Source of the DNA: Candidatus Poribacteria bacterium
Lineage (GTDB): Bacteria > Abyssobacteria > SURF-5
Reading direction: 5' to 3'
Length of the DNA stretch: 10,596 nucleotides
NCBI GenBank assembly: GCA_016215705.1
Contig: JACRIR010000112.1
Coordinates: forward strand, 1 to 10,596
This document shows, piece by piece, positions 531 through 10,596 of the stretch. The translations under genes and the position numbers were made by a program. Every line of letters begins with the position of its first letter. Position 1 is the first letter of the stretch. The notes beneath the pieces were generated by a model, which was not told the DNA's origin, did no database searches, and was given only the letters and a program-made list of their open reading frames with translations.

Positions 531-1646
531 CTAGACTAAAGTTGGGTGACGGGCTTTGTCTTGTCTGCTTGAAACACTTTGCCCCCTACCTCGATTGCTT
601 TCTTGGGGGCAGGCAGGACATGCAACAGAGGCGACAGGCCGACGCTTACCGCCGACGGGAGTGGGCACTGATTCGAATCGCCCCGACGAAAGTGCCTTGA
701 TATGGGCGTCCAAGAGCTGCCGGTCAACTACGTACATACCGCCGCGGGCACCCTCGAAACCACAATTCCAAGCGGCTAATGTTTGTCCGTATTGCAACGC
801 TGCAACCAAACCCGATGAGCCGGTGCGGACTAGACCTTCCCGACCTTCTCCAGCAATCTTTGCAATGAGGCCAGCAGTACACCAATCCCCAGATCCGCAT
901 GTATCTGCAAGCAGCGGAGCTGGGATCGCAGCCAACTGCTTCCATGCAGAAACGCCACGACCTAACCTATGCCGAAACCGTAAGCCAGTTGCGCCCAAAG
1001 TCTGTATCTCAACCAGCGTTGCGCTGCCTCGTTCCATCGCACCCAGGACTTTCTCAAACCGCTGGTCAGAGTACTTGATTACATGTGCAATGCCAACAGC
1101 TTCGCGCAAAAGCTTCTCATCAGATTTTGCCGAAGGTTCGAACACGACGACAGCACCGTTTTCAGCAGCCTGTTGAGCCAAGAGCAGTGCGGCACGAGAT
1201 AGACGATCCATAAAAAACACTTTGGCATCTTTCATACTCGCAGCGACCACCTCAACAACCTTCGTCGTAACCGGCTTAAAGCCTGGTAACCAACTGCCAC
1301 AGTGAGGACAAGACCATGAGAAGCGATGCTTTGGCGATCCATCGCGCGCGCGAAGAATATGTTGAATAATGATGGGAGTATCTGTGGTCGGGCCACACCC
1401 AACGAAATCGAGGTGCACACCCCATCGCTTCATGTCAGCGCGGATTAGTTTAGCGGCTGGATCACTATTCAGGCGAGCGATCGGATAGGCATCCCAACCG
1501 AGGTATGACAAGATAGAAAGTACATTCCCGCAAGTACCACCAGCCCATGAACGCACAGGCACGTCAGGATTCGCACTGATGACCAAGTCAAGGGCGACCA
1601 ATCCCGTTCCAAAAATCTGTGGGGGCCGATTAATCGGACTGGTCAT
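531..1646 (-). CDS. PfkB-family sugar/nucleoside kinase with inserted CPxCG motif
   Basis: This is the last gene of the operon. PfkB/ribokinase-family enzymes transfer phosphate from ATP to a sugar or nucleoside hydroxyl in the cytoplasm. Visible parts, numbered from the preferred start: an N-terminal strand (IFGTGLVALDLVI, 11-23), the glycine-rich substrate lid region (AGGTCGNVLSILSYLGW, 35-51), and the anion-hole/catalytic motif DTCGSGDW (248-255), with D254 as predicted base. Unusual for the family is CPHCGSWLP at 113-121, between the lid and the nucleotide-binding part, plus CPAC at 343-346 in a polar tail; together these could bind zinc. The 371-aa length is somewhat longer than a typical ~300-aa member. 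ATG 1646 is preferred because it overlaps the upstream stop as ATGA and has GGAAG eight bases before it. ATG 1661 would add five residues but has poorer upstream sequence. The substrate is unknown; from its neighbours a ribose-, inositol- or nucleoside-like compound is plausible. Confidence 0.82.
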   Translation of the reverse strand: MTSPINRPPQIFGTGLVALDLVISANPDVPVRSWAGGTCGNVLSILSYLGWDAYPIARLNSDPAAKLIRADMKRWGVHLDFVGCGPTTDTPIIIQHILRARDGSPKHRFSWSCPHCGSWLPGFKPVTTKVVEVVAASMKDAKVFFMDRLSRAALLLAQQAAENGAVVVFEPSAKSDEKLLREAVGIAHVIKYSDQRFEKVLGAMERGSATLVEIQTLGATGLRFRHRLGRGVSAWKQLAAIPAPLLADTCGSGDWCTAGLIAKIAGEGREGLVRTGSSGLVAALQYGQTLAAWNCGFEGARGGMYVVDRQLLDAHIKALSSGRFESVPTPVGGKRRPVASVACPACPQESNRGRGQSVSSRQDKARHPTLV

Positions 1647-2758
1647 CGCACGGACTTCCATTCGCTTTTAAGTGGGGGCCTAGGCTGTGGATAAACATCT
1701 CCTTCAAGCCAGATATGCACCAAGAACGGACGCGGGTGTTCCGCAAACTGTGCAGCGTCGCAATTGTACCCGATGGCCTCCAGATACGCGACAGGCAAGT
1801 CTCGTTCAAGTGCAGCCATCAGTGCGCCCAAGGCCATTATCTTGCTGCCGACAGGCGACAGCACCAGCATAGATCCGCCAAACTCCTCGAAGACTGGTCT
1901 TCGAAGGTCATCAAGTTTCAGAATTGTCCGGTAAAGGTCCAGCGGATCGTCTTCAGCCGCGTAGACGATGTTGCGGGTATCTACTGACCATGTGCTTTCA
2001 AACTCGGCCAGAAAATCGTTCGCAAGTTCATCGCCAAGCCGAGGGTTGCTTGCGGGAAACGGGAGGATAGGGCACGTGTCATGGGGCGCAACGAAATCGT
2101 GAAGCCGGATAAGCGCGCCACGTCGCTCGCGTGCCAGTTGCGGTAGCCACAGTTTAGCCGCCTCTGCGTTTTGGTTCAGCGTCGATGCACCGCGAAATCC
2201 ATGCACGTGCCCTGGCACGTCGCTTGCGACAGGAACGATAGCGTGATCGAGCGCAGCATTGTGCGCAACGAACACATGCAGATTCATCGGCTCGTTACCT
2301 CGTTCAACGCGTTCGACCAAGTACTTGATAAGCGGAAAGCTCGTTCCTACCGATAATGCGCTGATGTCGATCGCGACGTCAGTAATCCCGGAGAAGTCCC
2401 ATCGATTAAGCGCTGCTACGACACTGCGGCCACCAACGACCGCACCATCGGGTCCAAATATCTCAATGGGCACTACTTCGTGATGTGCAAAAGACACTGC
2501 CAGTGTATTGCTGTTCGTTTCCGCGCGTTGCACCAAGTCTTGCGCCGGGTTTGGCCGAACTTCCTTGACGAGGAATGCCTCAACATTCTTGGAAGCACTC
2601 GCAAGCTCCGTCGCGACAAGCGCTGAACGCGGATCGAATCCCGCTCCACCAACAAACAGCACGCGTCGATTAGGATCCTTGAAGTAATCCTTCACGAACG
2701 AACACACTTCATCTCCACGATGGGCGATGCAGGGATCCCACCGTAACAATCGTGGCAC
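1643..2758 (-). CDS. Unidentified Rossmann-like protein of the operon
   Basis: I do not recognise the family. Numbered from GTG 2758, the 371-aa protein has a strand-turn segment RRVLFVGGAGFDPRS (31-45), typical of a Rossmann-type first strand and glycine loop. A second strand-helix unit follows, DVAIDISALSVGTSFPLIKYL (127-147). Further on are a conserved-looking CPILPFPASNPRLGDEL (229-245), an acidic AEDDPLDLYRTI (268-279) and a late LVLSPVGSKIMALGA (298-312) before another helix and strand. Alternating strands and helices, with glycine/serine-rich turns before helices, suggest nucleotide or nucleotide-like ligand binding; no catalytic motif stands out. The GSKIMALGA turn recalls ligand-sensing Rossmannoid domains such as CARF, but that is a weak resemblance. 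GTG 2758 lies one base after the ATPase stop and has GAGGG five bases upstream, which decides the start. A longer reading from GTG 2815 would overlap the ATPase gene by 56 bases. There are no membrane segments or signal peptide, so it should be cytoplasmic. Confidence 0.75.
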   Translation of the reverse strand: MPRLLRWDPCIAHRGDEVCSFVKDYFKDPNRRVLFVGGAGFDPRSALVATELASASKNVEAFLVKEVRPNPAQDLVQRAETNSNTLAVSFAHHEVVPIEIFGPDGAVVGGRSVVAALNRWDFSGITDVAIDISALSVGTSFPLIKYLVERVERGNEPMNLHVFVAHNAALDHAIVPVASDVPGHVHGFRGASTLNQNAEAAKLWLPQLARERRGALIRLHDFVAPHDTCPILPFPASNPRLGDELANDFLAEFESTWSVDTRNIVYAAEDDPLDLYRTILKLDDLRRPVFEEFGGSMLVLSPVGSKIMALGALMAALERDLPVAYLEAIGYNCDAAQFAEHPRPFLVHIWLEGDVYPQPRPPLKSEWKSVR

Positions 2759-2759
2759 G

Positions 2760-4670
2760 TTAGCCCTCACCCAAAATACGGACAAGATCCTCAGCGCTTC
2801 GCTCCAGGAACCCACCTCGCCGAAGGGTCAGTCCATGATGCAACAGCAATACCCCGCCCAGCTCTATCAAGCACCATAGCCTCTTCTTTGTCCCATGATT
2901 TGGAACCAGGGTGAAGCTGTTATAGGCAACGCCGAACTGCAGTACCAGAGCGAGATTTGGATATTTGGACGGAATGCTATCGAATTCTTCCTGTGGAATT
3001 CCGAATGCGGACGCTCCGCCGCCAAGCGACGCATTCGGCTCAAGACTTTTCTCGATACACTCCGCCGCAATTCCGTCCGCCAGGCGCCGAACAAGTTGAT
3101 GTTGAGGAAAGTCCCAATCTCGAACAATCTCCGCTGCCTTCTCGCGAAGTAGAGAGTGCTGAGTCCCGCTGCTCAGCGTGGCGGACTTGGCGCGAATTAG
3201 TTGCGTCTCGGACTGAGCCACAAGACGGGCCGCAAGTTGAAGAAACTGCTCAGCGTTCTCGGAACTTGCGTCGCACAGTGAGTCAATGCCATAGTAGTAA
3301 GGACGTGCGTATTTATGCATCAGGTGCAGACGAGCACCATCGGCCACCTCGGCGTCTGCAGTAAGCGGCCGAGTTGGTTCCACGTCCGCGGATCCGGCTT
3401 CGAATAAGCCACGTTGTGGGGTACGCTTCCCATAGCGTGCGAACAGGATCGCAAGCATCGCAAGCTTAAGGTCCTCGCCAGACTCTCCAGTACCGTTCAA
3501 GTATCGATCCACTTCAGCTTCCAGATCACGACGACGGGAAGCCGCAACACCATGGCGTCTCTGTAGAACATCCAGATGTTCCCGCAGATTCTCACGCTTT
3601 CCGGGTGCAATAGTTTCAGGCTCGGTCGCGAGCAGATCGCCCAAGCTGTTCAATCGTCGCCGGTTAAAAACTTCCATCTGCTGGAGATATCTGTTGGCCA
3701 TGTCTTTGGCCATCTTACGGAACGCTCGCCGTTGATTGCTTCGATCTTCGCTGCTTTGCAACCAAATGCTAGTGATTTCACGAGATCGTTTGAGGCCAGG
3801 TTCACCTGGTCCATCGGTATTCGACTGTTCAGTTAACACATCAGCCGGAGTAAGCGCATCCAGCCGCATCAAGACCCATCGCGCCACTTTCAACTCGCGA
3901 CGCGCAAGCCAGCGCTTCAGCGCCACAAGTTGAGCAGGATGCAGACTGTGTGCATCATCGAATATCACGAGCGGCCGCAGCAGAAGTGTATCCTCACCGT
4001 CACGGACACGGATTGAATCAATCACGTCGAATGGGCGATAGGCGGCAGCAGCATCTGCGTCAATATCCGATAAGCTGGGTGGCATTAACGCAGCGGAAAT
4101 CTTGTAGATCGCCAACTCCACTTGAGAGGCGCGCTGGAGAACGCTAGGACCTGACACTCCACCAATTGCTGTTAACGCAGCATCAGCGCCAACACGGGGA
4201 ACGATCTCGACATCCTCCAAGCGCACGCCGGCAGTCGTGAATCCACGTAACCATGTAAGCACTGTGCGCGCTTGCAGCAGCGCAATCATCAGGCCTGCCT
4301 TCAGCTCATCAGGATATGGGAACTCCCAGAAGTCACGATATTCGGCTTCGAGCGGCAGGCGCCCACCGACTACGGTCGGCAGATCGTCGACCACAGCCAA
4401 GCAGGCCGTCAGCGTATCAATCAACGGTTTGTATGTATTAAGGTTCTTGTTTCGAAGCAAGGTCCGAAGCGTCGGATACTGAAAAAGTCGAGCGAGCGTC
4501 GTCTTGCCACTACCCGGCGTTCCGATGATTACGGCCAAGCGATCATAGAGGCGCCCTTCTTCAGCCGGCTTTTGGAAGAAAGTCGAGAGCGGTTCGGGTG
4601 TCACGACGGCAAGAAATGCCTCGTCGTCCCGGAGGTACTCGGTTGCGCGTTTTTCGAATGGGTTTGCCAT
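2760..4670 (-). CDS. Large P-loop ATPase, ORC/CDC6-like AAA+
   Basis: This is the central and largest regulatory-type gene of the operon. Numbered residues show a Walker A loop IIGTPGSGKTTLARLF (48-63), a Walker B PLVIFDDAHSL (233-243) with D238/D239, and a sensor-1-like strand RWVLMRLDAL (264-273). A roughly 170-residue insertion separates Walker A from Walker B. Beyond that are a helical middle region and a C-terminal segment with LGGVLLLHHGL and RRGGFLERSAEDL, possibly a winged-helix-like end. The order and the FDDAH box resemble ORC/CDC6-like AAA ATPases found in bacterial conflict loci; this is from family knowledge, not a search. Role inferred: ATP-driven sensor or switch, possibly binding nucleic acid or partners. 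The ATG at 4670 lies 8 bases after the preceding stop, with no clear Shine-Dalgarno sequence, so translation may depend on coupling. A STAND-type ATPase is the main alternative. No nuclease or protease motif was seen in the protein. Confidence 0.82.
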   Translation of the reverse strand: MANPFEKRATEYLRDDEAFLAVVTPEPLSTFFQKPAEEGRLYDRLAVIIGTPGSGKTTLARLFQYPTLRTLLRNKNLNTYKPLIDTLTACLAVVDDLPTVVGGRLPLEAEYRDFWEFPYPDELKAGLMIALLQARTVLTWLRGFTTAGVRLEDVEIVPRVGADAALTAIGGVSGPSVLQRASQVELAIYKISAALMPPSLSDIDADAAAAYRPFDVIDSIRVRDGEDTLLLRPLVIFDDAHSLHPAQLVALKRWLARRELKVARWVLMRLDALTPADVLTEQSNTDGPGEPGLKRSREITSIWLQSSEDRSNQRRAFRKMAKDMANRYLQQMEVFNRRRLNSLGDLLATEPETIAPGKRENLREHLDVLQRRHGVAASRRRDLEAEVDRYLNGTGESGEDLKLAMLAILFARYGKRTPQRGLFEAGSADVEPTRPLTADAEVADGARLHLMHKYARPYYYGIDSLCDASSENAEQFLQLAARLVAQSETQLIRAKSATLSSGTQHSLLREKAAEIVRDWDFPQHQLVRRLADGIAAECIEKSLEPNASLGGGASAFGIPQEEFDSIPSKYPNLALVLQFGVAYNSFTLVPNHGTKKRLWCLIELGGVLLLHHGLTLRRGGFLERSAEDLVRILGEG

Positions 4671-4678
4671 AGCCGTGA

Positions 4679-5824
4679 TTACGCGTGCCGCTGACGACGT
4701 CGAAACAGCGGGCGCATCGCCGGCGCATCAATATCCTGATCGCGTGCTCCTCCTTCCGTCTCTGCCCACAACAATGCCACGGAGTTATTTGGCGTATTGT
4801 GATCGAGCACAAGCGGCAGCGCACAGCCTCCGTATCCCAACCCGAGATGTGTTACGCCACCGACGTCAGTATGGCGGGTCTGGATGATGGGGTCGTAATA
4901 TTTTTTCGTTAAGTCGATGAAATCGTCGTAGCGCCCCCCGGCCTTGTCGATCGGAAAATCATCAGGCAAGACGGTACCAAACGAGAAATGAATTGTTTTT
5001 GGCCAACCAGCCCCTGTCAAGCTCGTGTTCGCTTCCAGGGCTCGTTCTTCGATGACCTTTTTCGCATGAGCACTGCCAATATAATGGTGCACACAGAGAT
5101 GCCAGTCCGGTTGGAACAACTGGTCATTTTCAAGAGCCTCTGCCGCTGCCTGCATTGAGTCCTTGAACCTCACGAGTTTGCCGCCCCACTTCTGCTTCAC
5201 CTTGTTGTAAGACAGCAGCGAGGTTCCGGTACCCATGAAGTCATCGATCAAATAAACCATTGCAAATCGTGCTTCCTGATCTTTCAAATCTTCTCTCAGC
5301 TTGTCCAGTAAGTCTTTCCACTTGGCTGCATCGACCTGGGTTGCAACTACGAGTTGCTCATTTGTGAGCAAACCCACATTAGAGTGTCGAACAATGTCGA
5401 CTCTTGCGCCGTCACTGAGCCCCATGAACAATGTCTGGCGCCTCAAACGATTGAGTGCTTTGGTTGCCTCCAGGTCCGCCAGCACACGGTACATCGGTAT
5501 CTCGCGCTGCGCAGCGATAGTCCGCACCAACCGATCGCGGACTTCACGCGGATAGAACTGCTCCACCAGGCGCTGCATTTCGCTAGGCCCAATGTAGACA
5601 AGCGCCGAGCGAATGAAGCCATACGCAGTTTCGCGCTCAGCCTTCGTAAACTGCTGCAACCAGGTTGCCAGACTCTCAATGAAGCGCATCCCCGCCTGAA
5701 AATCGCGATAGCCGTCGTACTTCAACCGCGCCATCAGACGCAACCAGTCAAACTCGTTACGGGCGCGTTCATCGTTCCAATCCAAAATGCGGCTGAGGAT
5801 GTTAAGCCCAAGGTCTTGGTTCAT
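4679..5824 (-). CDS. Phosphoribosyltransferase-like protein (PRTase-CE type)
   Basis: Residues 189-203 read MVYLIDDFMGTGTSL, a near-canonical type I phosphoribosyltransferase PRPP-binding motif: hydrophobic strand, two acidic residues D194/D195, then the GTGTS phosphate loop. Such enzymes join or release a base at C1 of PRPP. The first ~110 residues are helical and charged with no known motif. The C-terminal part has a glycine-rich GLGYGGCALPLVLDHN stretch running into NTPNNSVALLW (about 328-353), which I associate with the PRTase-CE group described computationally in bacterial conflict systems. The 381-aa length is about twice a housekeeping PRTase, so this is not a standard purine or pyrimidine salvage enzyme. 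ATG 5824 overlaps the upstream stop as ATGA (5821-5824), indicating translational coupling. Substrate base and reaction direction cannot be read from sequence. Some PRTase-fold proteins are regulators that only bind PRPP, which remains possible. Confidence 0.8.
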   Translation of the reverse strand: MNQDLGLNILSRILDWNDERARNEFDWLRLMARLKYDGYRDFQAGMRFIESLATWLQQFTKAERETAYGFIRSALVYIGPSEMQRLVEQFYPREVRDRLVRTIAAQREIPMYRVLADLEATKALNRLRRQTLFMGLSDGARVDIVRHSNVGLLTNEQLVVATQVDAAKWKDLLDKLREDLKDQEARFAMVYLIDDFMGTGTSLLSYNKVKQKWGGKLVRFKDSMQAAAEALENDQLFQPDWHLCVHHYIGSAHAKKVIEERALEANTSLTGAGWPKTIHFSFGTVLPDDFPIDKAGGRYDDFIDLTKKYYDPIIQTRHTDVGGVTHLGLGYGGCALPLVLDHNTPNNSVALLWAETEGGARDQDIDAPAMRPLFRRRQRHA

Positions 5825-7764
5825 TGCAACTTGGTCGAGTCGATCCGTAAGCCGGAGTTGGTTACGGTAAGCGCTTTGAGGTAAAAGAGCGTTGCAGCGA
5901 TCCCACGCTGCCCACGCGGCGCCAAATTCCAGCAGGTAGCCGGATCAACACTAAGTTCGTCGACACTCAACGCGAAAGGCTCTTTCAGCAGTTCATAGTC
6001 GTTCCCTGGCCATCGACCCCGGTCGCCGATCATCAGAACTGGTGCGGCGCCGACACTCTGGCGCAAGTGCTCAAGCACATTGAGTTTTGAAACGCCCTCC
6101 GCCATGATGTCGATGGAATGGCTAGACCGGGTAATAGTGACATTACGCTGTGCCGCCATCAGTACCGTTTGGTGCGCGAGATCCCATAACCGCCCCTCGG
6201 GCGTTGGTCGTAGTGCCTCCAAAGTGATTTGAGAGTGCCTATCAGTTTGCTTGGCAATGTCAGCCAATTCGGACTGCCCGCGCAATGCAGAGGCAATAGA
6301 GGCTAAAGACTCACAAACCACATCCTCGCCATTGGGCGCTTGATCGTCAGCGAGCGTCGCTATCTGCGCGCCATTGTAGTAACCAATAATGATTTTCGGC
6401 CAAAGATCTGGGGAGAGCAGTTTCCGTAGATCCCGCTTGACGGATACACCTCGCCCGGTAGCAATCGCCAAATGAATTCCAGACCTGACGATCCGGACCA
6501 GCTCGTCGACGATTTCTTTGTGAGGCGGGAAGAACCGTTCGCGGGTATCGACGACCGTGCCATCGTAGTCGAGTATGAGCCCACTGAACAGCGCCTCAGC
6601 AAGGTCGCTGCGGAAACGCTTGAGCGCGGTGCGCCAGCGATCAAGTTCGGCCCGCTCGACCAAGCGCGCCAACGCAATCCCAGACTTCCGTTCTATGGCA
6701 ACCGCATCTATGTCGTCGATGGTCGAGAGGCCTTTTCGAGGCCGCTCCTTTGGTAAGGGAAGATGATAGAGCTTGCGACCGAATTCCGGTACGCCTGGGC
6801 GGCCCGGATCAATGGCTCGCGCCTTGCCGGCCCATCCCGTAATCTTAAGCGCCGCGATCAACGACACTAGTTGGGCAGCTTCCGGAGATCCTTCAATAAG
6901 TAGCCGAGCTTGAGGGATATCTTCAGGGATCAACGCAAGTGTTCGCTCGGCGAGAGTCTGATCAGCACTGGAAACAAATGCCAGCACGCTACTAATATCG
7001 GCGCGTTTGGCAAGCCAATGATGGCGGCCATGTGCGAAGTTTCGGTAGTCCGCAATCTGCAAGTTGCCTACCGCAGCTTCGGTAAACTTCGATTCAAGAT
7101 CAACCGCACCAATCCGCGTTGTTGCTCCGTGCAGGACAATCGTCGTACTCCGAGACCACAGCCTCTCCGTGCTGGACTCCCACTTACCCCAGCGGGCTTC
7201 ATCCTGCAAAAGCGAATAAATCGCGGCCATTTGAGAATCGAGGTCTGACGTTGAACCCTCAAACTCGCTCATGTAAGCACGCGTCATGAGCGTAACAAAA
7301 GCAAGCAACGAATTGGTAGCTAAAAAACCGTCCTTCCCCGTCGGAGGTTCATAGAGCAGCAGATCGCAAAAACCATGATCGCGCGCTGCACTCGCGAGCG
7401 GACTATTAGAGCGCCCGCACAAGACGCCAAGCTGACGCGGCTCTCTTGCAACTAGCGCTCGGAACGCGGCCAAAATGTCCACGTTGCCTCCACCCGCACT
7501 AACAAGCCATGTCGCGACACCAGAACCTAAAGGCTCCACAATGGCCTCCAGCGGGGTTGCTACCGCAGACATCTGTTCAGTGCATCTCCGATGAAGGCTA
7601 GCAAGCGCATGTGCGGCAGTCAGCGACCCGCCCGATCCGATCGCAAGCAGCGGGGAAAGACCTGCCGTCTTAACTGCCAAGCGCAATGGCGCAATATCGC
7701 TCGCCATCGCCCAAGCGAACGTATCCGCGAGCTTTGACATTTCGGTGTTGTATGGCTTTGCCAT
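5821..7764 (-). CDS. Tandem SIS (sugar isomerase) plus HAD phosphatase fusion
   Basis: This is the first gene of the operon. The N-terminal ~330 residues look like two SIS units, the fold that binds and isomerises phosphosugars in GlmS, AgaS and FrlB. The first has AIGSGGSLTAAHALA (41-55) and WLVSAGGGNVDILAAF (86-101). The second has TIVLHGATTRIGAVDLESKF (208-227) followed by ADYRNFAHGRHHW (238-250). The C-terminal part (about 395-635) is a HAD hydrolase, similar to Cof-type, with all four motifs: LDYDGTVV (D399, D401), ATGRG (T436), K560, and GDRGRWPGND (D581, N588, D589). One polypeptide therefore offers phosphosugar handling and dephosphorylation. ATG 7764 is used: it is the longest start, with an in-frame stop upstream; AAGGA lies upstream but about 15 bases away. 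ATG 7740 would remove eight residues and cannot be excluded. The protein appears cytoplasmic, and its true substrate is unknown. Confidence 0.85.
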   Translation of the reverse strand: MAKPYNTEMSKLADTFAWAMASDIAPLRLAVKTAGLSPLLAIGSGGSLTAAHALASLHRRCTEQMSAVATPLEAIVEPLGSGVATWLVSAGGGNVDILAAFRALVAREPRQLGVLCGRSNSPLASAARDHGFCDLLLYEPPTGKDGFLATNSLLAFVTLMTRAYMSEFEGSTSDLDSQMAAIYSLLQDEARWGKWESSTERLWSRSTTIVLHGATTRIGAVDLESKFTEAAVGNLQIADYRNFAHGRHHWLAKRADISSVLAFVSSADQTLAERTLALIPEDIPQARLLIEGSPEAAQLVSLIAALKITGWAGKARAIDPGRPGVPEFGRKLYHLPLPKERPRKGLSTIDDIDAVAIERKSGIALARLVERAELDRWRTALKRFRSDLAEALFSGLILDYDGTVVDTRERFFPPHKEIVDELVRIVRSGIHLAIATGRGVSVKRDLRKLLSPDLWPKIIIGYYNGAQIATLADDQAPNGEDVVCESLASIASALRGQSELADIAKQTDRHSQITLEALRPTPEGRLWDLAHQTVLMAAQRNVTITRSSHSIDIMAEGVSKLNVLEHLRQSVGAAPVLMIGDRGRWPGNDYELLKEPFALSVDELSVDPATCWNLAPRGQRGIAATLFYLKALTVTNSGLRIDSTKLQ

Positions 7765-8582: not shown

Positions 8583-9041
8583 TCAAACCCGGTCCGCCGC
8601 ACTCCGAGCGTGCCTGATGCAGATGATGGCTTTTACCAAGTGGATTGCTTCGCGCCTGATTTTCGTCAGCTGGAACTCGGTTTCCTCAACCATGTCCGCC
8701 TCCCAATCCTGGGCCAAGGCTTTCAGCTTTGACAATGTGTATCCGTAGGCTCCTTTAGGCCTGGTGACATGCGTCCGTATGGATTTCCGGTCGCCATTGG
8801 CTTTGGATCCATACCACTTGATTCCGCACCAATCCAGCCTGATGGAGTTTCCCTCCTGCATGCACCGGACTTGAAGGGTACTTTTGTGTTCCCAGCCAGT
8901 GAGCTTTTGCTCCATGCTGTAGACGAAGGTCCAGTGCCTATCAACGATGCTGTGCGCGCTCGCATGCAGGGCATCAATACGACGTTCCAGTACGGCAATC
9001 GCCTCATCGTGGCAGCCCGGTTCAAGGGGTACTTCAGTCAT
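8583..9041 (-). CDS. mobI: MobI-like conjugative transfer protein
   Basis: The 152-aa protein resembles MobI(A/C), an auxiliary mobilisation protein of SXT/R391 elements and IncA/C plasmids that is needed for transfer and encoded beside oriT. Supporting sequence: an N-terminal helix ending in VDRHWTFVYSMEQKL, a central strand pair with GNSIRLDWCGIKWYG, then RPKGAYGYTLSKLKALAQDWE, and a final long helix (ETEFQLTKIRREAIHLVKAI). Length and this order fit the family. ATG 9041 is chosen because AAAAGGAG lies 10 bases upstream; TTG 9095 would add 18 unsupported residues. It diverges from the ParM-like gene across a repeat-rich region, as expected at an oriT locus. Cytoplasmic, with no catalytic motif seen. 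No relaxase is present in this window, so it must lie elsewhere on the element. Confidence 0.68.
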   Translation of the reverse strand: MTEVPLEPGCHDEAIAVLERRIDALHASAHSIVDRHWTFVYSMEQKLTGWEHKSTLQVRCMQEGNSIRLDWCGIKWYGSKANGDRKSIRTHVTRPKGAYGYTLSKLKALAQDWEADMVEETEFQLTKIRREAIHLVKAIICIRHARSAADRV

Positions 9042-9232
9042 GGCTGTAACGCTCCTTTTACTGTGGTGCAATCTGATGTCATTCCGCTCCTCCAAAGCAG
9101 TCCATTGCCCACGTCAATCACGCGAAACGCCAATAATCAGGAGCGATTGACTCCCTGTTCGCTCATCCCGATTTCTTCTCCATCCGAGACGCATCAAGCC
9201 ACCAACGCCTGACCACTACTTTCGAATACCTG

Positions 9233-9306
9233 ATCGCTCCTATTAGTAGCGTCGCCCCATCGATCGCGAAATGATCCTCAGTGGATGGCGTATTCATAGG
9301 AGCGAT
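9233..9306. repeat. 11-bp inverted repeat (ATAGGAGCGAT) with 52-bp spacer
   Basis: ATCGCTCCTAT at 9233-9243 is the exact reverse complement of ATAGGAGCGAT at 9296-9306. The nine-base core AGGAGCGAT occurs a third time at 9139-9147 on the plus strand, and a related GGTCGCTCC lies at 9317-9325. Three copies within 170 bp between mobI and the ParM-like gene suggest protein-binding sites, for example for MobI, a relaxosome protein or a repressor. Confidence 0.55.
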
Positions 9307-9461
9307 TTGCCGTCCGGTCGCTCCGTTCGCCCTCCCTGATTCATCAGCTCATTCGACCGCCGGTTCTTTATGAGAGCCAGGCCGCAGCCTTCTTTCGAAT
9401 GGTGAGGCGCAACGTCGTTACCGCAAGCAACCGCTCGCCACCCTACCAAATCGGGAGTCAG

Positions 9462-9508
9462 AAACGAGGGTGAAAAGCGCACGCTTTGTGCGCTTTTCAC
9501 CCTCGTTT
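9462..9508. repeat. Perfect 21-bp inverted repeat with 5-nt loop
   Basis: The left arm 9462-9482 (starting AAACGAGGGTGAAAAGCG) and right arm 9488-9508 (ending CACCCTCGTTT) are exactly complementary around a GCTTT loop (9483-9487). The strong stem is followed on the plus strand by only a short T run (CGTTTTA). Because both flanking genes point away from it, a terminator for them makes no sense. A cruciform, a single-strand transfer or replication signal, or the end of an unseen small RNA are better options. Confidence 0.8.
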
Positions 9509-9535: not shown

Positions 9536-9679
9536 GCGGTGCACTAGCGGTCGACAGACATCAATCAGCCATCGCAATTTCTACGATTGTTCTCTGACGG
9601 TCGACTGGCGGTGCACTGCAGCGCCACTCGATGGTGGCATTTGAAGCTTTGTGCTCTAGCGGTAGACAGGAGGTCGACT
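9536..9679 (+). repeat. Paired 11-bp direct repeats, parC-like centromere/operator
   Basis: Ten-base units of the form GCGGTCGACT or GCGGTGCACT occur in pairs set 11 bp apart: 9536 and 9547, 9597 and 9608, 9659 and 9670. The pairs are 61 and 62 bp apart. The last pair overlaps the ribosome binding site and the first base of the TTG start. A longer relation is also visible: the 19 bases at 9539-9557 match 9651-9669 in 17 positions. Type II (ParM/ParR) partition loci have centromeres made of ~11-bp direct repeats just upstream of parM and are autoregulated from them, so a ParR-like protein, expected downstream, is the likely ligand. Confidence 0.6.
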
Positions 9680-9681
9680 TG
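9668..9681 (+). promoter_or_regulatory. Ribosome binding site and TTG start of the ParM-like gene
   Basis: AGGAGGT (9668-9674) is a near-perfect Shine-Dalgarno sequence four bases before TTG 9679-9681. The frame from that TTG begins with the actin phosphate-1 motif NILGIDIGYSN, as expected for the true N-terminus, so the rare TTG start is well supported. The site lies inside the last repeat pair, so a bound repressor would also cover it. Confidence 0.75.
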
Positions 9682-10596
9682 AACATTCTTGGTATTGACA
9701 TCGGGTATTCCAACCTGAAGCTCGCGTATGGCGAAAAAGGCGCGACGCCGAAAACACAGCTCCGCCCGGCCGGAGCGGCGCCTGCTGATCGCTTCAGTTC
9801 GCGTTTTGACGGGAAAACCCAGGATGATTTTCTGCATGTGCAGGTGAATGGGGATCCCTTCATTGCCGGTGTAGCACCCGACCGCGCAGAAATGTGGAGC
9901 CGATCGCTGCATGCCGACTACCCATCCAGCGCGTCCTACCGGGCGCTTTTCCACGCAGGCCTCTTGCTGTCCGAGGTTGATCACGTCGATATGCTGGTCA
10001 CTGGCTTGCCCGTTTCCCAGTATCTCGACGAGAACCGACGCCATGCCATCGCGGAGCAGATGAAGGGTAGCCACCAGGTCACGCCGAAGCGCTCCGTCTC
10101 GGTTGATGCCGTCAAAGTCATTCCGCAACCCGTTGGGGGATTCCTGGATTTCATTGCCGGCGATGACGCAGATTTTGAGGGTGCCCGTGTCCTCGTCATC
10201 GATCCAGGATTTTTCTCGGTCGATTGGGTGGTCATTGCCGATTCGGACCTCCATCGTCAGTCATCGGGTACTTGCCTGGAGGCATCTTCCGTCGTTCTCG
10301 AGGAGGCTTCCCGCCTGATCGCCAAGGACTATGGCTCCAACGTCAGTACGGAAAAACTTGAGAACGCGATCCGTGGCGGCAAGGCTGAGGTTCTTGTACT
10401 GGGCAAGCGCGTGGATCTGGGTCCGTACATCGAGCAGGCATCCAGAAAGGTGGCTCCCGTTGTCGTCGAATCGATCCAGAAGTCGCTGCGCAAGGAAAGT
10501 GAATCCGTAGACAGGGTTCTCCTGGTAGGTGGCGGCGCGACCTTCTTCAAGGATGCGCTGGGTGCCGCGTTCGCTCAATTGACGGTCGTAACCACG
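9679..10596 (+). CDS. parM: ParM/StbA-like bacterial actin (3' end outside window)
   Basis: The frame from TTG 9679 is open for 306 codons to the window edge. It shows the actin-fold ATPase motifs in order: phosphate 1, NILGIDIGYSNLKLAYG (residues 2-18); a mid-domain LVTGLPVSQYLDENRRH; phosphate 2, VLVIDPGFFSVDWVVI; and the adenosine motif VLLVGGGATFFKDAL near the end. ParM-type proteins polymerise into filaments that push apart plasmid or ICE copies bound through ParR at a parC centromere. PilM and Alp7A relatives share these motifs. The start is chosen from the strong AGGAGGT and the position of the phosphate-1 motif. An expected small downstream adaptor (ParR-like) would lie past the window. 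In SXT/R391 a comparable ParM homologue lies near mobI and stabilises the excised element. An opposing long open frame (10254-9565) is a shadow of this gene. Confidence 0.88.
   Translation, partial: MNILGIDIGYSNLKLAYGEKGATPKTQLRPAGAAPADRFSSRFDGKTQDDFLHVQVNGDPFIAGVAPDRAEMWSRSLHADYPSSASYRALFHAGLLLSEVDHVDMLVTGLPVSQYLDENRRHAIAEQMKGSHQVTPKRSVSVDAVKVIPQPVGGFLDFIAGDDADFEGARVLVIDPGFFSVDWVVIADSDLHRQSSGTCLEASSVVLEEASRLIAKDYGSNVSTEKLENAIRGGKAEVLVLGKRVDLGPYIEQASRKVAPVVVESIQKSLRKESESVDRVLLVGGGATFFKDALGAAFAQLTVVTT

Follow-up and report, generated by a model that had tools for sequence, protein, structure and literature searches.

The five close-set genes that occupy positions 531 to 7764 of the DNA analysed here, all on the minus strand, are in our preferred but tentative reading, which we rate somewhat short of an even chance, a conflict system of two modules that is carried on mobile DNA and is probably directed against phages or plasmids. 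The window, by which we mean the whole stretch analysed, is an entire contig of 10,596 bases (JACRIR010000112.1, assembly GCA_016215705.1) of a Candidatus Poribacteria bacterium, whose genome comprises 5.47 Mb in 270 contigs. A role in conflict is likely; we infer its chemistry, together with the trigger, the substrates, the direction of flow and the use in defence. The genes encode a double-SIS domain fused to a HAD phosphatase (SIS-HAD; gene 1, 5821-7764, an open reading frame (ORF) of 647 amino acids), a phosphoribosyltransferase (PRTase; gene 2, 4679-5824, 381 amino acids), an ORC/CDC6-like ATPase (gene 3, 2760-4670, 636 amino acids), a tandem CARF protein of the PADLOC CARF6 type (gene 4, 1643-2758, 371 amino acids from the operon start GTG at 2758, in an ORF that reaches a GTG at 2815) and a PfkB/ribokinase-family kinase (gene 5, 531-1646, starting from an ATG at 1646, with an alternative ATG at 1661). 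They are joined by an ATGA overlap (5821-5824), an 8-nucleotide gap (4671-4678), a 1-nucleotide gap (2759) and a second ATGA overlap (1643-1646), so that the layout proposed in an earlier note, which was made from the letters alone, is confirmed by the ORFs and the sequence. We favor the conflict reading because of the co-occurrence of the five genes, the CARF and SIS folds, the intact motifs and the mobile context; it is further backed by the ORC-like scaffolds of defense systems such as BREX, by a PRTase in a known anti-phage system, and by the reading of nucleotides by CARF proteins.

The association of the five genes goes far beyond chance, given both the number of complete loci and a recurring gene overlap. 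A PRTase alignment run against 84,980 species genomes returned 326 relatives, and among the best 80 loci, which were examined, 70 carry all five genes, and at the remaining 10 a contig end precedes the missing gene. The SIS-HAD and PRTase genes share a four-nucleotide xTGA overlap at 34 of the 50 loci having that gene order. When 72,556 plasmids were searched with tblastn, the CARF, PRTase and SIS-HAD queries matched the same 17 records (the ATPase query 16 of them), and the only other matches were a fragment of the PRTase and a SIS-HAD in degenerate form; divergent queries recovered these records and, in addition, a single Streptomyces plasmid. The system, whole or in part, is also present on five IMG/VR (candidate viral) contigs, phage records searched with the CARF protein gave no match, and a DNA search of E. 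coli genomes did not find it. The hosts belong to at least ten phyla, i.e. Pseudomonadota, Actinomycetota, Planctomycetota, Gemmatimonadota, Chloroflexota, Bacteroidota, Myxococcota, Thermodesulfobacteriota, Chlamydiota and Tectimicrobiota, and several of these are interleaved in the PRTase tree, where changes of phylum label alone are not proof of transfer. The idea of one functional unit spread on mobile DNA among unrelated hosts is thus upheld by the complete loci, the plasmids and the mixed phyla. Homologues are not found mostly apart from one another, and the patchy distribution and mixing of phyla show no fixation in core genomes; on the same grounds a core catabolic operon fixed in one lineage was rejected. 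Apparent insertions were seen at two loci, one with ATPase-like sequence in two ORFs and extra ORFs between them (L054), the other with the CARF gene divided between two ORFs that lie about 2 kb from each other (L065).

Residue conservation and pairwise-identity correlations were computed over 72 loci, to which the conservation values of catalytic and signature motifs given here refer. Pairwise identities divide the operon into two co-evolving modules, module A (PRTase, ATPase and CARF protein) and module B (SIS-HAD and PfkB): mirror-tree correlations were 0.90 for SIS-HAD with PfkB and 0.77-0.87 within the PRTase-ATPase-CARF triplet, and 0.60-0.69 between the modules. The order of the triplet is constant and the positions of SIS-HAD and PfkB vary around it, with module A between SIS-HAD and PfkB at 51 loci, ahead of both at 15 and behind both at 3, SIS-HAD preceding PfkB in all three orders, and with one divergent arrangement; two seeming exceptions were an artefact of overlong ORFs. 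On two rhizobial plasmids (L010, 6507-17158; L011, 12001-24175) two divergent module A triplets, their ATPases 24% and their CARF proteins 27-28% identical, accompany a single module B pair, as is expected if module B handles a common product. Key residues of the HAD domain, the phosphoribosyl pyrophosphate (PRPP) loop, the Walker motifs, PfkB and the SIS domain are 97-100% conserved and the CARF lysine 93%, which suggests that all five gene products are probably active proteins.

Gene 4, which the earlier note had left as a Rossmann-like protein, does have a Rossmannoid fold and belongs to a sensor type, but is not anonymous: both profile and fold identify it as a tandem CARF protein. It has no significant Pfam match and matches the PADLOC CARF6 model PDLC01916 over its full length (E 4.5e-130), and its relatives at other loci match their best CARF6 model at 1e-93 to 1e-146. 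AlphaFold models of the SIS-HAD and CARF proteins, built on 56 and 58 relatives, were both confident, with a predicted local distance difference test score (pLDDT) of 94.1 and 93.3, respectively. The Foldseek ranking for the gene 4 model was uninformative (template modelling score about 0.25) and was resolved by VIA-align, whose first 19 rows are CARF proteins only (Z 12.5 to 7.7; best non-CARF 7.5), headed by a Csm6 in complex with cyclic penta-adenylate (Z 12.5 over 255 residues) and including Can2, Card1, Cam1, Csa3 and the ring nuclease Sso2081. The first CARF half (about residues 30-180, minus strand, 2219-2671) carries the motifs GFDPR and DISALSxG, and the second (about residues 195-355, minus strand, 1694-2176), which aligns with Sso2081 and Cam1, carries SPxGSK, in which K306 is lysine at 93% and arginine at 7% of loci. 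In the AlphaFold model this residue sits after a core strand of the second half; a positively charged residue (K/R motif) after strand 4 is a trait of the CARF superfamily (PMC4012209). The two Rossmannoid halves in the model make a single, pseudo-dimeric pocket probable.

Gene 1 combines a double-SIS domain of GlmS/NagB-II-like isomerase or deglycase fold with a Cof-type HAD-IIB phosphatase. A search of PDB sequences with the SIS part only gave no match, and the fold was recognized by structure: residues 1-337 (minus strand, 6754-7764) align with 2aml at Z 32.1 (325 residues, root-mean-square deviation 2.8), with GlmS/GFAT isomerase domains at Z 30-31 and with the FrlB deglycase at Z 24.6 in VIA-align. 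Within this domain E229, H245 and G246 are invariant, and the 16-residue spacing of E229 and H245 is what we take to be that of the catalytic glutamate and HGP histidine of GlmS; K331, a possible counterpart of the ring-opening lysine of GlmS, is not conserved. The HAD-IIB domain (about residues 395-640, minus strand, 5845-6582; PF08282 8.8e-10, TIGR01484 1.9e-9) has the invariant residues D399, D401, K560 and D581, and its DxDGT, lysine and GDxxxND motifs are 97-100% conserved.

Genes 2 and 3 fit the PRTase-CE and ORC/CDC6-like AAA+ ATPase families that the earlier note had named from bacterial conflict systems, both profiles scoring above the gathering threshold (PF24390, E 1.1e-14; PF24389, E 1e-12); the two models are consecutively numbered and may stem from one common source paper. 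The predicted PRPP-binding loop of gene 2, LIDDFMGTGTS (residues 192-202, minus strand, 5219-5251; family pattern LIDDFxxxGTS), matches that of orotate PRTase 3mjd weakly, with D194 conserved in 99% and D195 and G200 in 100% of loci, and a family-specific C-terminal motif, HNTPNNS (residues 342-348, minus strand, 4781-4801), is conserved at 94-100% over residues 342-347. In gene 3 both the Walker A motif GTPGSGKT (residues 50-57, minus strand, 4500-4523; K56 and T57 100%) and the Walker B motif PLVIFDD (residues 233-239, minus strand, 3954-3974; D238 100%, D239 97%) are intact. Gene 5 matches PF00294 (3.9e-12) and fructokinase 5ey7 (5.9e-15), and the aspartate of its catalytic motif DTCGSGD (minus strand, 885-905), D254 (D259 in P0001 numbering), is conserved at 97%, the remainder being alignment gaps. 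The PfkB alignment also shows a retained CPxCG insertion (first cysteine 97%, second 76%), often with a second CPAC near the C-terminus, a possible zinc site that would be unusual for PfkB. Taken together, the PRTase, PfkB, SIS-HAD and CARF assignments support the ribose-phosphate/nucleotide theme with a sensor that had been proposed for the operon.

In the mechanism that we propose, module A would both sense and act: the ATPase would assemble on, or be triggered by, invader nucleic acid and license the PRTase, which would use PRPP to place a 5-phosphoribosyl group onto an acceptor (a base or an amine), and the tandem CARF protein would gate the activity by binding a nucleotide, which might be the PRTase product or one that arises from infection. 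Module B, joined by a NADAR N-glycosidase in a third of loci, might handle the PRTase product by a kinase, then an isomerase or C-N cleavage, then a phosphatase step, and so act as an off-switch or antidote; the order of kinase, SIS enzyme and phosphatase is suggested by analogy with the fructoselysine pathway and by the SIS-HAD fusion. Several points weigh against this reading. No obvious killing domain, such as a nuclease or a membrane pore, is present in the operon, so that the effector step would rest on the PRTase, and the PRTase acceptor and the substrates of module B are putative. Moreover, the two-module split could instead reflect separate recombination histories, the defense genes near the loci were counted without a control set of neighborhoods, and the occurrence in Streptomyces of a CARF6-like partner without the ATPase hints that the CARF protein could take part in catalysis and not just in sensing.

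This last case also bears on the possibility, which we regard as rather doubtful, that the operon belongs to accessory metabolism, synthesizing or breaking down a phosphoribosyl- or amino-sugar compound, whether to support growth or for secretion, with the CARF protein and ATPase regulating or assisting the PRTase. On the Streptomyces scopuliridis plasmid NZ_CP109092.1 (L112, 8929-10841) a distant PRTase-CE gene and a CARF6-like gene share a 4-nucleotide overlap; the latter gene retains the second half only and has lost the lysine. The pair lies in an apparent phosphonate/nucleotide biosynthesis cluster, amid genes for PRPP synthetase, nucleotide kinases, an inositol-monophosphatase-like phosphatase, pgi, phosphoenolpyruvate mutase and a homocitrate-synthase-like protein, which supports PRPP-dependent chemistry for the PRTase and its CARF6-like partner. 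A metabolic role would also suit the four sugar- and nucleotide-metabolism enzymes with intact active sites, the occurrence of SIS and PfkB pairs in fructoselysine catabolism (FrlB/FrlD), and a stand-alone SIS-HAD homologue with a degenerate SIS half that adjoins a sugar ABC transporter and an aldose epimerase (L020, 7125-8819). However, the conserved unit has no transporter or permease, its patchy spread covers ten or more phyla and includes plasmids and sites beside integrases and transposases, and an ORC/CDC6-like ATPase and a CARF protein are unusual for catabolic operons. Within immunity, a more specific version seems to us unlikely, in which the system would be independent of clustered regularly interspaced short palindromic repeats (CRISPR) and produce a messenger or poison of its own, derived from PRPP, the CARF protein reading the product of the ATPase-licensed PRTase rather than a cyclic oligonucleotide, and the kinase, SIS enzyme and phosphatase clearing it.

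We consider quite unlikely a toxin-antitoxin or plasmid-addiction role, in which module A, as the toxin, would phosphoribosylate nucleic acid or protein and module B, with or without NADAR, would as the antidote remove and recycle the adduct. The two co-evolving modules, the single module B pair that serves two module A triplets, the frequent plasmid location and the recurrent NADAR gene, whose product is a known reverser of guanine ADP-ribosylation, would all fit such a role. Of 86 non-redundant loci, 27 have a NADAR gene and 18 a small Cro-like helix-turn-helix gene; NADAR, often with the Cro-like gene, occurs at L009, L010, L011, L012, L016, L017, L018 and 21 more loci, is concentrated where the order is PRTase, ATPase, CARF, SIS-HAD, PfkB, and is present in a subtype in which PfkB was not found (L017, L105). 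No NADAR gene was found in the window or its host genome. On the other side, long contigs that seem to be chromosomal carry many of the copies, a typical toxin-antitoxin system would need neither an ATPase nor a nucleotide sensor, and we know of no demonstration that a PRTase of such type phosphoribosylates nucleic acid. Finally, it is very improbable that the operon is ancillary to type III CRISPR, with a CARF protein that responds to cyclic oligoadenylate made by Cas10, in spite of the PADLOC model name PRTase_III-A and a CARF fold nearest Csm6, Can2 and Card1, as PRTase_III-A models match gene 2 only at about 1e-11 (8e-12) compared with 1e-130 for CARF6 models against gene 4, and the tested host genomes lack Cas10 matches: Csm1 was not over the cut-off in 27 host genomes or the window's own host, nor Cmr2 in 28 genomes including that host, where Cas1 was not found either. 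A weak PF22335 match in the host genome was not used, as E. coli matches too.

Around the loci, resolvases, integrases and transposition and conjugation genes are recurrent neighbors, and defense families occur nearby as single cases (type I methyltransferases, HEC-01A, PD-T7-1, PD-T4-1, DpdF, MzaA and AbiEii). Taken without control loci, such a neighborhood is no more than suggestive of a defense role; of the earlier proposal that the operon is defense cargo of a mobile element, the presence of mobile and defense genes nearby stands, as support from neighborhood. Upstream of a Bradyrhizobium copy we also noted multiubiquitin, ThiF-like and DUF6527 genes of bacterial ubiquitin-like conjugation (L015, 1377-3419). 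In the window itself the flanking genes, which the earlier note had called unrelated, are in part genes of mobile elements: profile matches identify a MobI protein (8583-9095) and a ParM/PRTRC-D-like actin (9679-10596), both conjugative-element or plasmid genes, which, together with the C-terminal part of a HipA-like protein truncated at the beginning of the contig (2-430), are consistent with a plasmid or conjugative element. Upstream of the ParM-like gene are repeated AGGAGCGAT-type motifs, direct and inverted (9139-9323), which could be iterons or a centromere site, and a perfect 21-nucleotide inverted repeat with a 5-nucleotide loop (AAACGAGGGTGAAAAGCGCAC..., 9462-9508); no RNA families were found in the window. 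The guanine-cytosine content of the operon and flank (0.55) is inside the range of other loci of the host genome (0.51-0.56), and this composition neither supports nor rules out contamination of the host bin. The analysis covered three genomes of the host phylum, and the PRTase was not found in the two besides the host; the lineage is rare or poorly sampled.

Every part of the operon is in a named family, and a description of the whole unit was not found in a partial literature search, and the unit may already have been described; the earlier label of an undescribed system could hold for the five-gene combination but not for its parts, since Pfam has curated models for the PRTase and the ATPase, and PADLOC-DB includes the CARF family. 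Gene 4 resembles the CARF6 group (PDLC01916, PDLC01910) in its full-length profile match and CARF effector fold; PADLOC labels that group as having three CARF domains, whereas the gene 4 model has two clear Rossmannoid halves and no fused effector domain, and PADLOC states no partner genes. Genes 2 and 3 belong to the PF24390 and PF24389 families, whose Pfam entries as read name no surrounding system, and are here joined with CARF, SIS-HAD and PfkB proteins. A SIS deglycase is paired with a PfkB kinase in the FrlB/FrlD pathway, and the operon shares this pairing of fold classes, but its SIS domain is fused to a HAD domain and linked to a PRTase, an ATPase and a CARF protein. The type III ancillary effectors (Csm6, Can2, Card1, Cam1 and Chp) have the CARF fold in common with gene 4, and Chp couples CARF with a HAD phosphatase (PMC12715507), whereas in the operon CARF, HAD and PRTase are separate. 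PRTases and HAD phosphoesterases of the Ter system are thought to produce a nucleoside-like signal (PMC7824862), and one Ter cluster includes a CARF family (PMC4012209); the operon shares the PRTase and HAD theme and has SIS, PfkB and an ORC-like ATPase instead of Ter genes, which were absent among the recurrent flank families listed, with no search aimed at TerB, TerC or TerD. ORC/CDC6-like ATPases serve as scaffolds in invader-sensing systems such as BREX (PMC12839542), and the DprA-PRTase system of P2 hotspots places a PRTase in experimentally shown anti-phage defense (PMC9122126), although that system has two genes, a DprA partner and another context. What CARF domains sense outside CRISPR is largely unknown, and the operon makes this question directly testable, because its strict unit holds a plausible ligand-maker (the PRTase) and ligand-remover (SIS, HAD and PfkB) and no Cas10. 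NADAR reverses guanine ADP-ribosylation as the antitoxin of DarT1 (PMC11543638, PMC11125620) and at the present loci could cleave an N-glycosidic adduct, although the conserved genes of the operon include no ADP-ribosyltransferase. If the conflict reading is true, phosphoribosyl chemistry would join the known bacterial means against invaders, and NADAR enzymes would gain a context besides DarT.

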